A DNA stretch of 15,805 nucleotides from contig NZ_JOGB01000095.1 of NCBI RefSeq assembly GCF_000719335.1, positions 1 to 15,805 on the forward strand. Reading direction: 5' to 3'. The stretch's first letter is position 1, and each line of letters begins with the position of its first letter. The position numbers and the translations under genes are program-made. The stretch comes from Streptomyces sp. NRRL S-87 (lineage in GTDB: Bacteria; Actinomycetota; Actinomycetes; Streptomycetales; Streptomycetaceae). Below are positions 6,989 through 10,573 of the stretch, piece after piece. Under the pieces are notes generated by a model. It was not told where the DNA came from and made no database searches. It saw only the letters and a program-made list of their open reading frames with translations.

Positions 6989-6997
6989 TGTGGACAA
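6989..6997 (-). promoter_or_regulatory. Perfect DnaA box (TTGTCCACA on the minus strand)
   Basis: The plus strand reads TGTGGACAA, the reverse complement of TTGTCCACA, which is the preferred DnaA box of Streptomyces oriC. It lies about 40 bases upstream of the uvrD2 start. A single box is not an origin; it could be a regulatory or titration site, or chance. Confidence 0.45.
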
Positions 6998-7037
6998 CCG
7001 TCCCGGCCGCCGCACCGGACCTGGCAGCATGGCAGGT

Positions 7038-9212
7038 GTGACAGCAGCAACGCCTCTCCCGTCCTTCCCTTCCGCCGCGGAGTCGGCCGACGCGGTGCTC
7101 CTGGGCCTGGACCCGGAGCAGCGCGAGGTCGCGACCACGCTGCGCGGCCCGGTGTGCGTCCTCGCCGGAGCCGGTACGGGCAAGACCCGGGCGATCACCC
7201 ACCGCATCGCGTACGGCGTGCGCGCGGGCATCCTCCAGCCCGCCAGCGTGCTGGCCGTCACCTTCACCAACCGCGCCGCCGGCGAGATGCGCGGCCGCCT
7301 GCGCGGCCTGGGCGCCGCCGGGGTCCAGGCACGCACGTTCCACTCGGCCGCGCTGCGCCAGCTCCAGTACTTCTGGCCGCGTGCGGTCGGCGGCGACCTG
7401 CCGCGGCTCGTGGAGCGCAAGATCCAGCTGGTGGCGGACGCGGCTGCCCGCTGCCGCGTCCGCCTGGACCGGAACGAGCTGCGCGACGTCACCGGCGAGA
7501 TCGAGTGGGCCAAGGTCACCCAGTCCACCCCCGCCGACTACCCGGCCGCCGTCCGCAAGGCGGGCCGCGAGGCCCCCCGCGACCCGGCCGAGATCGCCCA
7601 GATCTACGGGATGTACGAGCAGCTGAAGCGGGACCGCGTCATGATCGACTTCGAGGACGTGCTGCTCCTCACGGTCGGCATCCTCGAGGACCGGCCCGAC
7701 ATCGCCGACGTGGTCCGCAGCCAGTACCAGCACTTCGTGGTCGACGAGTACCAGGACGTCAGCCCGCTCCAGCAGCGGCTGCTGGAGCTCTGGCTCGGCG
7801 ACCGCGACAGCCTGTGCGTGGTCGGCGACGCCAGCCAGACGATCTACTCCTTCACCGGCGCCACCCCCGACCACCTCCTGGACTTCCGCACCCGCTACCC
7901 GCAGGCCACCGTGGTGAAGCTGGTCCGCGACTACCGCTCCACCCCGCAGGTGGTGCACCTGGCCAACGGGCTGCTCGCGCAGGCCCGCGGCCGGGCGGCC
8001 GACCACCGGCTGGAGCTCGTCTCGCAGCGCGAGCCGGGCCCCGACCCGGTCTTCACCGAGTACGCCGACGAGCCCGCCGAGGCCGAGGGCGTGGCCCGGC
8101 GGATCCGCGGCCTGATCGACGCCGGGGTGCCGGCCGGGGAGATCGCGGTCCTCTACCGCATCAACGCCCAGTCGGAGGTCTACGAGCAGGCCCTCGCCGA
8201 CGCCGGGGTGCCCTACCAGCTGCGCGGCGCGGAGCGCTTCTTCGAGCGCGTCGAGGTCAAGCAGGCCATCGCGAACCTGCGCGGCGCCGCCCGCTTCGGA
8301 GCGAACGACGCCGTCCTCGACGACGTCGTCGAGCTGCCCGCGCAGGTCCGGGCCGTGCTGAGCGCGAACGGCTGGACCCCCCAGCCCCCGGCCGGCTCGG
8401 GGGCCGTGCGCGACCAGTGGGAGTCGCTGGCCGCCCTGGTCCGCCTGGCGGAGGACTTCTCCCGCGGCCGGTCGCGCGAGGTCACCCTCGCGGACCTGGT
8501 CGTCGAGCTCGACGAACGGGCCGCGGCCCAGCACGCCCCCACCGTCCAGGGCGTCACGCTCGCCTCCCTGCACGCGGCGAAGGGCCTGGAGTGGGACGCG
8601 GTGTTCCTGGTCGGCCTGACCGACGGCATGCTGCCGATCACGTACGCGAAGACCGACGAGCAGATCGAGGAGGAGCGCCGCCTCCTGTACGTCGGGGTCA
8701 CCCGGGCACGCCTGCACCTGGGCCTGTCCTGGGCGCTCTCGCGCTCTCCGGGCGGCCGGGCGACCCGGCGGCCCAGCCGCTTCCTGAGCGGCCTGCGGCC
8801 GGGCTTCCGGGCCGGCGGCAGCCGCTCGCCGGGCGCCTCCGGGGTCATCGAGCGGGGCCGGGCGCGCGGCCGCCGGGGCCCGGTGCTGTGCCGGGTGTGC
8901 GGCAGGACCCTCACCGACGCGGGAGAGATGAAGCTCATGCGCTGCGAGGAGTGCCCGTCCGACATGGACGAAGGGCTCTACGAGCGGCTGCGCGACTGGC
9001 GCGCGGTGCAGGCGAAGGCCCTGGGACAGCCGGCGTACTGCGTCTTCACGGACAAGACGCTCATGGCGATCGCCGAGGCCGTGCCCCACGAGGAGGGCGA
9101 GCTCGCCGTGATCTCAGGCGTGGGTGGACGCAAGCTCGACCGCTTCGGAGCCGATGTCCTGGCCATCTGCGCAGGTCAGGAGCCTGGTGAGGGGGAGGGG
9201 GCCGACGCGTAG
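7038..9212 (+). CDS. uvrD2: UvrD2-type SF1 DNA helicase with tetracysteine zinc motif and HRDC domain
   Basis: The 724-residue protein is a 3'-5' DNA helicase of the actinobacterial UvrD2 subfamily. Walker A is GAGTGKT (44-50) and Walker B is VDEYQD (D236, E237). Other motifs are VVGDASQTIYSFTGA, LVRDYRS, LASLHAAKGLEWDAVF and LYVGVTRAR. After a basic linker, C618-x2-C621-x14-C636-x2-C639 forms the zinc motif characteristic of UvrD2, followed by a C-terminal HRDC domain (about 643-720). Mycobacterial UvrD2 is about 700 residues and has this same architecture. The GTG at 7038 is chosen because a -10-like CAGCAT (7025-7030) ends 7 bases before it; in-frame ATG 7029 and GTG 6990 are alternatives. 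No terminator separates it from the wblC promoter, which starts 11 bases after its stop. Confidence 0.93.
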   Translation: MTAATPLPSFPSAAESADAVLLGLDPEQREVATTLRGPVCVLAGAGTGKTRAITHRIAYGVRAGILQPASVLAVTFTNRAAGEMRGRLRGLGAAGVQARTFHSAALRQLQYFWPRAVGGDLPRLVERKIQLVADAAARCRVRLDRNELRDVTGEIEWAKVTQSTPADYPAAVRKAGREAPRDPAEIAQIYGMYEQLKRDRVMIDFEDVLLLTVGILEDRPDIADVVRSQYQHFVVDEYQDVSPLQQRLLELWLGDRDSLCVVGDASQTIYSFTGATPDHLLDFRTRYPQATVVKLVRDYRSTPQVVHLANGLLAQARGRAADHRLELVSQREPGPDPVFTEYADEPAEAEGVARRIRGLIDAGVPAGEIAVLYRINAQSEVYEQALADAGVPYQLRGAERFFERVEVKQAIANLRGAARFGANDAVLDDVVELPAQVRAVLSANGWTPQPPAGSGAVRDQWESLAALVRLAEDFSRGRSREVTLADLVVELDERAAAQHAPTVQGVTLASLHAAKGLEWDAVFLVGLTDGMLPITYAKTDEQIEEERRLLYVGVTRARLHLGLSWALSRSPGGRATRRPSRFLSGLRPGFRAGGSRSPGASGVIERGRARGRRGPVLCRVCGRTLTDAGEMKLMRCEECPSDMDEGLYERLRDWRAVQAKALGQPAYCVFTDKTLMAIAEAVPHEEGELAVISGVGGRKLDRFGADVLAICAGQEPGEGEGADA

Positions 9213-9223
9213 AAACTCGTCGG

Positions 9224-9262
9224 AAAAATAGTTTGCACATGCCCCGCACATCCCCATAGGTT
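9224..9262 (+). promoter_or_regulatory. WhiB7/WblC-type autoregulated promoter of wblC
   Basis: An AT-rich run AAAAATA (9224-9230) stands directly upstream of a -35 TTGCAC (9233-9238), an 18-base spacer and a -10 TAGGTT (9257-9262). WhiB7 promoters are known to carry such an AT-rich block just upstream of the -35. The WhiB7 AT-hook binds it while the iron-sulfur domain contacts sigma region 4, giving autoactivation. Transcription should start near 9269, leaving a leader of about 610 bases before wblC. Confidence 0.78.
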
Positions 9263-9276
9263 CTTAGCAACGGAAA

Positions 9277-9299
9277 CGGTGGCTTCTGAGAAGCCTCCG
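9277..9299 (+). promoter_or_regulatory. Leader hairpin 1 of the wblC transcript
   Basis: CGGTGGCTT (9277-9285) pairs with AAGCCTCCG (9291-9299), with one T-T mismatch and a 5-base apex. It lies about 8 bases after the predicted transcription start, so it may protect the 5' end or form part of the attenuator. Confidence 0.45.
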
Positions 9300-9326
9300 C
9301 TCCGTGCTGTACTTGTCCGAATACAC

Positions 9327-9350
9327 GGGACGGGCCGAGAGGCCGGTCCC
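9327..9350 (+). promoter_or_regulatory. Leader hairpin 2 with GAGA tetraloop
   Basis: GGGAC (9327-9331) and GGCC (9333-9336) pair with GGCC (9341-9344) and GTCCC (9346-9350), with one G-G mismatch. The loop is GAGA, a stable GNRA tetraloop. It ends 12 bases before the Shine-Dalgarno of the upstream ORF, so it could influence leader translation. Confidence 0.5.
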
Positions 9351-9376
9351 CGAGACGCCGAGAGGAGGCGAGACCC

Positions 9377-9709
9377 GTGATCAGCTTCAACACCGTCACC
9401 AAAATGACCGATCGCCCGGTCGCCGCTTCCTCCTGCCTGCGTGATTCCAAGCTCGTCGCCTTCACCTCCGGTTTCCAGGGCACCGGTCTGTCCGCGATCT
9501 CCGCGATCAGCCCCGTCTCCCTTGCGACCCTGCCCGTCCGCGAGCGGATCGAAGGCAATGAGCGACCGACCCAGGCCCCGGCAGCAGTAGTGGCGCAGGC
9601 ACAGGCCTATGCCTTTGCCGCCACCGGTGCCGGACACCCGAAGCAGACGACGCAGCACCACACGATGTGGGCCTTCCGTGGGCTCGAACCCTGGAGTGAT
9701 CCAGCCTGA
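9377..9709 (+). CDS. wblC leader ORF (upstream ORF, 110 codons)
   Basis: A 110-codon ORF lies wholly inside the wblC leader. Its GTG start has a near-perfect Shine-Dalgarno AGGAGG (9363-9368) 8 bases upstream, the strongest in the window. The peptide shows no known domain, signal peptide or membrane segment. It is rich in Ala, Ser and Thr and ends in a short aromatic stretch with two Trp (WAFRGLEPW). Its stop (9707-9709) lies 21 bases before an intrinsic terminator. whiB7 genes of actinobacteria are known to have such upstream ORFs: when antibiotics impair leader translation, read-through into whiB7 increases. I infer this role here. Function probably depends on the act of translation rather than on the peptide, although a 110-residue product could exist. 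The second half uses more A-ending codons than the neighbouring genes. Confidence 0.8.
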   Translation: MISFNTVTKMTDRPVAASSCLRDSKLVAFTSGFQGTGLSAISAISPVSLATLPVRERIEGNERPTQAPAAVVAQAQAYAFAATGAGHPKQTTQHHTMWAFRGLEPWSDPA

Positions 9710-9720
9710 TCTGATCAGGC
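9704..9720 (+). promoter_or_regulatory. Inverted repeat spanning the leader-ORF stop codon
   Basis: GCCTGATC-T-GATCAGGC is an 8+8 bp inverted repeat that contains the TGA stop (9707-9709). In RNA it would form a short stem of about 5-6 bp. A ribosome at the end of the leader ORF would melt it, so it may sense leader translation next to the terminator. Confidence 0.5.
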
Positions 9721-9730
9721 CGGCGCCTTC

Positions 9731-9774
9731 AGGGCCGCGGAACCCCACCCGGGATCCGCGGCCCTTCTGTTTGT
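9731..9774 (+). terminator. Intrinsic terminator / attenuator in the wblC leader
   Basis: AGGGCCGCGGA (9731-9741) pairs perfectly with TCCGCGGCCCT (9755-9765), giving an 11-bp GC stem. Further C-G pairs are possible inside the 13-base loop (9743-9745 with 9751-9753). A T-rich tract TTCTGTTTGT (9765-9774) follows. This is a classical Rho-independent terminator located after the leader ORF and 107 bases before the wblC start. It would cut off wblC transcription unless antiterminated. Confidence 0.88.
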
Positions 9775-9881
9775 CCCCCGACGGGACGACGGAGCGAAGG
9801 GGCCTCGGGACTGGCAGCACCCGGTACCAGCCGAACACCGGCCCACCAGGCCGGACCGACCAGACGAGGAAAGAAACCACC

Positions 9882-10250
9882 GTGCAACTCGAAGCGCACG
9901 CCCCGTCCGTACCGCCCTCCCACTTGACCTCTCCGCCCGCAGTCCCGGAGGACTCCGCCTTGACTCCGCTCACCGCGCTCACCGCGCTCGACGACGCCAT
10001 CGAGAACCTCGGCGTGCCCGTCCCGTGCCGTACCTACGACCCCGAGGTCTTCTTCGCCGAGTCCCCGGCCGACGTCGAGTACGCCAAGTCCCTCTGCCGC
10101 ACCTGTCCGCTGGTCGAGGCCTGCCTCGCCGGCGCGAAGGAGCGCCGCGAGCCCTGGGGCGTCTGGGGTGGCGAGCTCTTCGTGCAGGGCGTGGTCGTCG
10201 CCCGCAAGCGTCCCCGTGGCCGTCCGCGCAAGAACCCGGTCTCGGCATGA
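9882..10250 (+). CDS. wblC: WhiB-family iron-sulfur transcription factor WblC (WhiB7)
   Basis: The 122-residue protein is the WhiB7/WblC master regulator of intrinsic antibiotic resistance. Four cysteines (C49, C72, C75, C81) ligate the [4Fe-4S] cluster. The GVWGG turn (93-97) is the sigma-interaction signature of WhiB proteins. The C-terminal AT-hook RGRPR (112-116) in a basic tail is specific to WhiB7. GTG 9882 is chosen because GAGGAAAG (9866-9873) lies 8 bases upstream. It follows uvrD2, as in other actinobacteria. Expression should be controlled at two levels: autoactivation at the AT-rich promoter (9224-9262) and attenuation in the leader. Its stop overlaps the start of the next gene (ATGA). 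It acts in the cytoplasm with the principal sigma factor. Confidence 0.97.
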   Translation: MQLEAHAPSVPPSHLTSPPAVPEDSALTPLTALTALDDAIENLGVPVPCRTYDPEVFFAESPADVEYAKSLCRTCPLVEACLAGAKERREPWGVWGGELFVQGVVVARKRPRGRPRKNPVSA

Positions 10251-10573
10251 ACGCCCGCGGCACGATCGACCGCCCCCTCACGTACGACCCCCTGAAGCAG
10301 GCCCCGATGACCCCGCACGCCAGCGAGCAGCCCTCCGGCTCCGCCCACACCGACTTCACCACTCCCGGCGCGAAGCTCTCGCGTCAGAACAGGACCCGCG
10401 AAATGCAACTCATCCCAGAAGCCCTGGCTCGTGCTCATATGCACGAACGGATGCGCGAGATCGACGCGGAACGGCAGGCCGTCCGTCTGATCAACGCCCG
10501 CCGCATGCAGAAGCGCGCCGAGCGCGTCTCGATGCGGGCCCGCCGCGCCCTGGCCATGGCGGTCATGCACTGA
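10247..10573 (+). CDS. Small basic protein translationally coupled to wblC, function unknown
   Basis: The 108-codon ORF starts at ATG 10247 inside the wblC stop (ATGA overlap), which implies translational coupling and co-expression. I do not recognise a characterised family. Residues 1-50 are Pro/Ser/Thr-rich and probably disordered. Residues 53-108 form a highly charged helix-rich segment with many Arg, Ala and Met. An internal in-frame ATG at 10403 begins this conserved-looking part, and codon use becomes less GC-rich around it (roughly 10377-10445). The true or an additional product could therefore be only 56 residues. No cysteines, signal peptide or membrane segment are seen. A strong terminator follows 21 bases after the stop. 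Co-induction with WblC is the main clue to its role. Confidence 0.7.
   Translation: MNARGTIDRPLTYDPLKQAPMTPHASEQPSGSAHTDFTTPGAKLSRQNRTREMQLIPEALARAHMHERMREIDAERQAVRLINARRMQKRAERVSMRARRALAMAVMH

Follow-up and report, generated by a model that had tools for sequence, protein, structure and literature searches.

A whiB7/wblC-type transcription attenuator predicted in the wblC leader of Streptomyces sp. NRRL S-87

Described attenuators and the wblC leader

In attenuators of the trp type, which respond to amino acids, the position of the ribosome chooses between an antiterminator and a terminator. Transcription attenuation mediated by an upstream open reading frame (uORF) at whiB7/wblC has reportedly been described by Lee, Lee and Roe in 2022 (Mol Microbiol 117:179) and by Burian and Thompson in 2018. 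Excerpts of several papers bear on the same system: PMC10727445 (citing Lee 2022 and Burian 2018) states that in actinobacterial whiB7 leaders overlapping sequences of the uORF and the terminator make up an antiterminator, PMC4128351 (Dinan 2014) reports that whiB7 of two mycobacteria has a uORF and a terminator, PMC11550727 and PMC13393426 present a terminator/antiterminator model for whiB7/wblC, and, for the M. tuberculosis whiB7 leader, PMC13236596 refers to tracks from ribosome profiling and term-seq. According to the model in print, as these excerpts give it, completed translation of the uORF favours termination, and after a stall the uORF end is free to pair with the terminator and prevents termination. 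The excerpt of PMC12121999 (eLife 2025) adds that no test had been made of whether ribosomes stall inside the whiB7 uORF. A second group, the Streptomyces ABCF attenuators are5sc and tiaA, has uORFs of 3-9 codons at whose start codon ribosomes stall with LSAP drugs (PMC12421871, excerpt).

The window analysed here is the whole stretch of 15,805 nucleotides, in which a UvrD-type helicase gene is followed by a promoter, the leader and wblC (Table 1). The wblC product matched PF02467 (Whib) at 54.4 bits (Pfam cut-off, 23.6), and the best 80 wblC matches were all Streptomyces records, which groups the window's genome with Streptomyces. Upstream of wblC lie a uORF with its own Shine-Dalgarno sequence, a predicted Rho-independent terminator between this uORF and wblC, and, judging from the predicted fold and covariation, an antiterminator that draws on overlapping parts of uORF and terminator. 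These features and the identity of the gene are those of whiB7/wblC attenuation, in which a uORF with a Shine-Dalgarno sequence is followed directly by an intrinsic terminator that an antiterminator overlaps. A uORF, a terminator and an antiterminator also precede the antibiotic-response genes of the ABCF group (PMC12421871, excerpt), but the wblC uORF is 110 codons long and the model calls for no specific stall site. As in trp-type attenuators, ribosome position would decide between antiterminator and terminator, whereas the wblC uORF has no run of regulatory codons by eye and its body is near-neutral. The locus is a known kind of attenuator and looks complete; the added value lies in the element map and in class-wide covariation. 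Lee 2022 may already include the explicit helices, the apical stop hairpin, the kinetic reading or the class-wide covariation. An earlier note on this DNA had called the arrangement less explored, which is only partly right, as a whiB7 antiterminator overlapping uORF and terminator is in print (PMC10727445, excerpt).

Table 1. Coordinates of the leader elements and neighbouring genes in the window.
Feature	Positions	Strand	Evidence
UvrD-type helicase gene, upstream of the promoter	6990-9212		PF00580
WblC-type promoter: A-rich box AAAAAT 9224-9229, -35 TTGCAC 9233-9238, 18-nt spacer, -10 TAGGTT 9257-9262	9224-9262	+	sequence
5' hairpin 1, imperfect	9265-9309	+	leader MFE fold
5' hairpin 2, whose loop in the window is GAGA	9327-9350	+	leader MFE fold; folds of relatives
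uORF Shine-Dalgarno AGGAGG	9363-9368	+	sequence; Streptomyces comparison
uORF, 110 codons, GTG start 9377, TGA stop 9707-9709	9377-9709	+	frame and stop conservation; dN/dS
Predicted antiterminator 5' arm in the last uORF codons: GUGGG 9667-9671, UUCCGUGG 9674-9681, CCCUGGAG 9689-9696	9667-9696	+	fold, pair counts, covariation
Stop-codon hairpin, apical stem of the predicted antiterminator	9704-9720	+	fold, two-sided changes
Predicted antiterminator 3' arm: CUUCAGGG 9727-9734, CCGCGGAA 9735-9742, CCCAC 9744-9748	9727-9748	+	fold, pair counts, outer helix
Intrinsic terminator hairpin, 11-bp stem (9731-9741/9755-9765) and 3 inner pairs	9731-9765	+	fold, alignment
U-tract, imperfect, UCUGUUUG (UUCUGUUUG)	9766-9773	+	sequence
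wblC Shine-Dalgarno GAGGA	9866-9870	+	sequence
wblC (whiB7), 122 aa, GTG 9882 to TGA 10250	9882-10250	+	PF02467 Whib

Most elements had been recognized in the earlier note. Its 110-codon ORF stands, with an AGGAGG that is perfect rather than near-perfect, as do the stem over the stop codon, which is present in the fold, the 10 bases (9721-9730) between this stem and the terminator, and wblC with its own Shine-Dalgarno sequence. The promoter is present but placed just upstream of 9263, where the note had begun its leader; the 11-bp terminator stem was recovered, but the T-tract behind it is imperfect; and the two hairpins both appear in the fold, but the GNRA loop ascribed to one of them is a feature of the window. 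A hairpin occupied the site of hairpin 2 in all 11 relatives whose folds were inspected, of the 80 folded, with a loop sequence that varied among them; the GNRA loop was not conserved.

A AAAATAGTTTGC-type promoter was found in 79 of the 81 Streptomyces leaders (the best 80 and the window; misses, L006 and L026), and 77 of these 79 had TTGCRC with an 18-nt spacer. The excerpt of PMC7157823 places a WblC promoter box, GAAAWY, 3 nt upstream of the -35 element; by eye, the window matched 5/6 bases of this box at the 3-nt spacing. With this A-rich box upstream of its -35, the window promoter has the sequence features of a WblC-activated promoter. A simple consensus scan reported neither the 9224-9262 promoter nor the 9731-9765 terminator; on our reading, the promoter hexamers fall below its sigma-70 thresholds and the inner loop of the terminator breaks its loop rule. 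An Rfam 15 scan of the window gave 0 matches at the gathering score, and at E <= 1 four matches, each far below its own gathering score.

Competing folds and ribosome position

The whole leader folded at -288.7 kcal/mol, compared with a shuffle mean of -250.6 kcal/mol (z -6.88; 0/20 shuffles as stable). The last ~14 codons of the uORF (9667-9696) are predicted to pair with the entire 5' arm of the terminator (9727-9748), GUGGG with CCCAC, UUCCGUGG with CCGCGGAA, and CCCUGGAG with CUUCAGGG. The segment 9665-9745, which is the RNA already made before the 3' arm of the terminator exists, folded as this antiterminator at -40.9 kcal/mol (2/200 shuffles as stable) and contained both main helices and the apical stem. 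For the segment 9728-9775 the fold was the terminator, at -30.2 kcal/mol (z -4.75; 0/200 shuffles as stable). When the structures were written out singly, antiterminator plus stop hairpin gave -41.1 kcal/mol and terminator plus stop hairpin -39.7 kcal/mol.

In these modelled folds the antiterminator has the stop hairpin as its apical stem, which makes the hairpin no separate gauge. The earlier proposal of an attenuator that measures ribosome position is well supported by sequence, but its stop hairpin is part of the antiterminator; it was taken for a separate element because the antiterminator had been missed. A CUGGA-GNRA-UCCAG mini-hairpin at 9691-9704, in whose loop GUGA, GCGA and GAGA alternate, was considered and not counted, because some family members lack it (CCCUGGAGAGAACGAACC) yet retain the antiterminator helix.

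Stepwise folds were computed on RNA from 9600 onward, with a modelled ribosome footprint that we take to be -15 to +12. When the uORF end was free, the probability of the antiterminator was 0.97 with the RNA 3' end at 9748 and 0.98 at 9752, and 0.34 at 9760, as the second arm of the terminator emerges; in re-equilibrated RNA, the probability of the terminator was 0.98 at both 9765 and 9772. Even when the uORF end is free, equilibrium favours the terminator; the model therefore requires a kinetic switch in which the antiterminator stays trapped. At a 3' end of 9748, a modelled A site at codon 80, 90 or 95 left the antiterminator unaffected (0.96-0.98), codons 98 and 100 gave ~0.45, and codons 102, 104, 106, 108 and 110 gave 0.00-0.01; the values for codons 5-60 equal those of the free case because the modelled ribosome then sits upstream of the folded stretch. 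A modelled ribosome at the stop codon gave an antiterminator probability of 0.39 at 9748 and 0.39-0.45 over 9748-9752, an incomplete exclusion before terminator closure, and a terminator probability of 0.99 at 9772. A ribosome in about the last ten codons is therefore predicted by these models to block antitermination, whereas a stall upstream is not.

Conservation and covariation of the leader

The Streptomyces set (n = 81) comprised the window and the best 80 wblC matches and is biased toward close relatives. All 81 leaders had both uORF and terminator, kept the uORF frame and its TGA stop, carried AGGAGG 8-9 nt before the uORF start, and placed the stop exactly 18 nt past the CCC of the antiterminator arm. 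Length of the uORF took 19 different values between 88 and 119 codons in the same leaders, and 19 lengths with the frame always kept are hard to explain without translation.

In the family, 199/200 genomes had a wblC match, and we picked 40 leaders from these 199 genomes, 10 from the same genus and 30 from other genera; one of them (L228) matches Streptomyces-set locus L072 without a difference across 126 nt. Uniformly, the 40 leaders had a terminator and a uORF that ended at this stop with at least 5/6 Shine-Dalgarno matches, three of them (L208, L223 and L225) lacking the tail motif as first defined and being counted after separate testing. The stop lay 18 nt past the CCC in 39/40 leaders and 19 nt in the other. 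Together with 66/80 leaders across the class, these counts bear out the conservation of uORF and terminator that the earlier note had named as a check.

Alignment A1 contained 61 sequences, namely the window, 23/80 Streptomyces loci and 37/40 family loci. Across these 61 sequences, 98.8% of antiterminator cells and 99.3% of terminator cells were paired. The stop hairpin showed two-sided changes in 3 pairs and 27 cells, values reached by 11/500 and 0/500 shuffles, respectively. The helices of 9674-9681 and 9689-9696 showed no two-sided pair change in A1, so that all covariation among the main helices and the stop hairpin lay in the stop hairpin. The outer helix, GUGGG/CCCAC, changed jointly to GCGGG/CCCGC or CCCGU within the family; its test value was 283, against a shuffled mean of 272.8 and a maximum of 280 (0/2000, with relatedness ignored). 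Terminator pairs were almost invariant in A1, without covariation in that set.

Across the class, 130 of the 148 genomes searched had a whiB7 match, and 80 leaders were taken from these 130. The terminator rule found a match in 71/80 leaders, one of which (L182) was plainly wrong, and terminator and uORF were both present by strict rules (at least 5/6 Shine-Dalgarno matches for the uORF) in 66/80, on which all class fold, swap and covariation statistics rest. The uORFs of these 66 leaders spanned 23-279 codons, and their stops lay 15-29 nt before the terminator stem (median 22.5). In 66/66 folds the uORF end formed at least 5 pairs with the terminator arm, with a mean of 10.97 pairs versus 6.65 for shuffled tails; at least 8 pairs formed with 94% of own tails, compared with 49% of shuffled tails and 39% of segments 100 nt upstream. 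Tails swapped between class leaders averaged 9.32 pairs, and 80% reached at least 8, because terminator arms are alike and GC-rich; pair count alone is therefore no proof of co-evolution.

Matched changes across the class included GGACUCC/GGAGUCC, GGCACCC/GGGUGCC and GGAUUC/GAAUCC, among others. The own tail folded better with its own arm than the tails of other families did in 24/25 families, a comparison that includes the stop hairpin and hence tests the antiterminator as a whole. For the distal helix alone, the own tail had the advantage in 19/25 families (p 0.015); a pooled test of this helix gave 0/5000 with relatedness ignored, the by-family result being weaker. Paired changes were also seen in the terminator, with A-U to G-C at one pair in 18/64 sequences of alignment A2 (51 of the 66 class leaders and 13 nearer rows). 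Read from these sequences, the antiterminator shows compensatory changes class-wide.

Covariance model R1 matched 79/80 class leaders at E <= 0.01 (miss, L183), 51 of the 80 having built the model. Among the 29 class leaders outside it, which are often kin of the 51, 28 matched, 5 of them at 35.8 bits or less, which is no better than ordinary terminators elsewhere. Genome-wide, at E <= 0.01, R1 gave a match in at least 119/148 class genomes; not all of these need lie at whiB7, and one (L243), read by eye, lies elsewhere. In the window's genome the wblC site scored 94.1 bits, a match by construction because the R1 alignment includes the window; the 16 remaining matches at E <= 10 were its own reverse complement (30.5 bits) and sites of at most 26.5 bits. 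As candidates for a second copy of the element we considered L240, L241, L242 and L243, one in the window's genome (26.5 bits) and three in other genomes (33.4-37.2 bits); each has a similar GC-rich stem, and by eye we take them for ordinary terminators, placed next to tRNA genes or where genes end.

Readings of the leader

The best-80 Streptomyces set gave dN/dS values of 0.93-0.97 for the uORF body, 0.23 for its last 14 codons and 0.185 for wblC, which served as internal control; the values come from simple counting on gapped alignments of GC-rich genes. A body value near 0.95 suggests that the peptide hardly matters.

The sequences and modelled folds show how the leader is built and that it is conserved, with compensatory changes in both stop hairpin and antiterminator and a uORF body that evolves near-neutrally. 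We read the element as a whiB7/wblC transcription attenuator for which completed translation of the uORF, not its peptide, would be the signal, and put the probability of this reading at roughly 0.86. Transcription would start near 9268 from a promoter activated by WblC itself, and a ribosome would translate the uORF behind RNA polymerase. A ribosome that reached the last codons on time would cover the uORF end and block the antiterminator; the 9731-9765 terminator would then fold and transcription would end near 9766-9773. Were translation stalled or late upstream, the free uORF end would pair with 9727-9748 as these bases emerge, and the antiterminator would probably persist by kinetic trapping. 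Since the antiterminator occupies the whole 5' arm of the terminator, polymerase would read on into wblC, whose product could then boost its own promoter, autoactivation and antibiotic induction being presumed for this strain.

A very improbable alternative is an arrest-peptide sensor: a drug or metabolite would make the conserved C-terminal end of the uORF product (WAFRGLEPWSDPA) halt the ribosome close to or at the stop, and the fold would depend on where it halted. Such a sensor would fit tail amino acids that are nearly invariant within the best-80 Streptomyces set and the low dN/dS of the tail. However, fourfold sites in the tail are nearly invariant too (diversity 0.036 at 6 sites, versus 0.139 at 26 sites in the body), which points to an RNA pairing constraint; a modelled stall at codons 102-110 favours termination, the wrong sign for induction; and class tails change (WSPPV, PDPLPA, REPVIP and others) while their pairing with the terminator stays.

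We regard as very improbable an equilibrium terminator under Rho- or NusG-dependent control, with the antiterminator a by-product of a constrained uORF end. The equilibrium advantage of the terminator over a free uORF end and the imperfect U-tract are both in its favour, but compensatory changes in the stop hairpin, the outer helix and the class-wide distal helix are unexpected for a by-product. Hardly credible is a functional small protein whose transcript the hairpins merely end, for although frame, stop and Shine-Dalgarno sequence are kept in all 81 Streptomyces leaders, the body evolves near-neutrally beside a constrained wblC in the same genomes, the product had no Pfam match at E 0.001, and lengths range widely across the 66 class leaders.

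The attenuator reading can be taken further. From sequence evolution and predicted folds we suggest, with somewhat better than even odds, that wblC leaders form one class-wide RNA family acting as a peptide-independent gauge of translation completion, with the near-neutral uORF body as detector, such that ribosomes held up for whatever reason at nearly any of ~95 codons would switch the gene on. The last ~14 codons would then be both coding sequence and antiterminator arm, with the stop codon fixed inside the apical stem. In actinobacteria, WblC/WhiB7 controls intrinsic resistance to numerous drugs that target the ribosome, and such a gauge, if real, would explain induction by chemically unrelated drugs and by amino-acid starvation alike. 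From the map we predict that where the ribosome sits is important only near the last dozen or so codons of the uORF, the peptide sequence upstream being irrelevant.

Several side observations concern the same region. RNAalifold on 81 sequences (the best 80 and the window) marked islands within the uORF body at 9484-9494 with 9559-9568, 9575-9579 with 9626-9630, and 9597-9608. They pair in most of the 81 sequences, with changes nearly all one-sided (maximum double-change count 6/81), for which reason we make no claim for long-range helices in the uORF body. The uORF Shine-Dalgarno sequence sits in a strongly conserved CGCCGAGAGGAGGCG (9350-9376), where by eye a 4-bp hairpin could form around it, a possible extra control of initiation. 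On the opposite strand, a 274-aa open frame (9176-10000, -) faces the leader and the start of wblC and is probably a by-product of high GC content. Downstream of wblC, a 56-aa ORF (10403-10573, +; MQLIPEALARAH...) had a tblastn match in 80/80 Streptomyces loci of the best-80 set, with 49-88% identity and at a near-constant distance from wblC.
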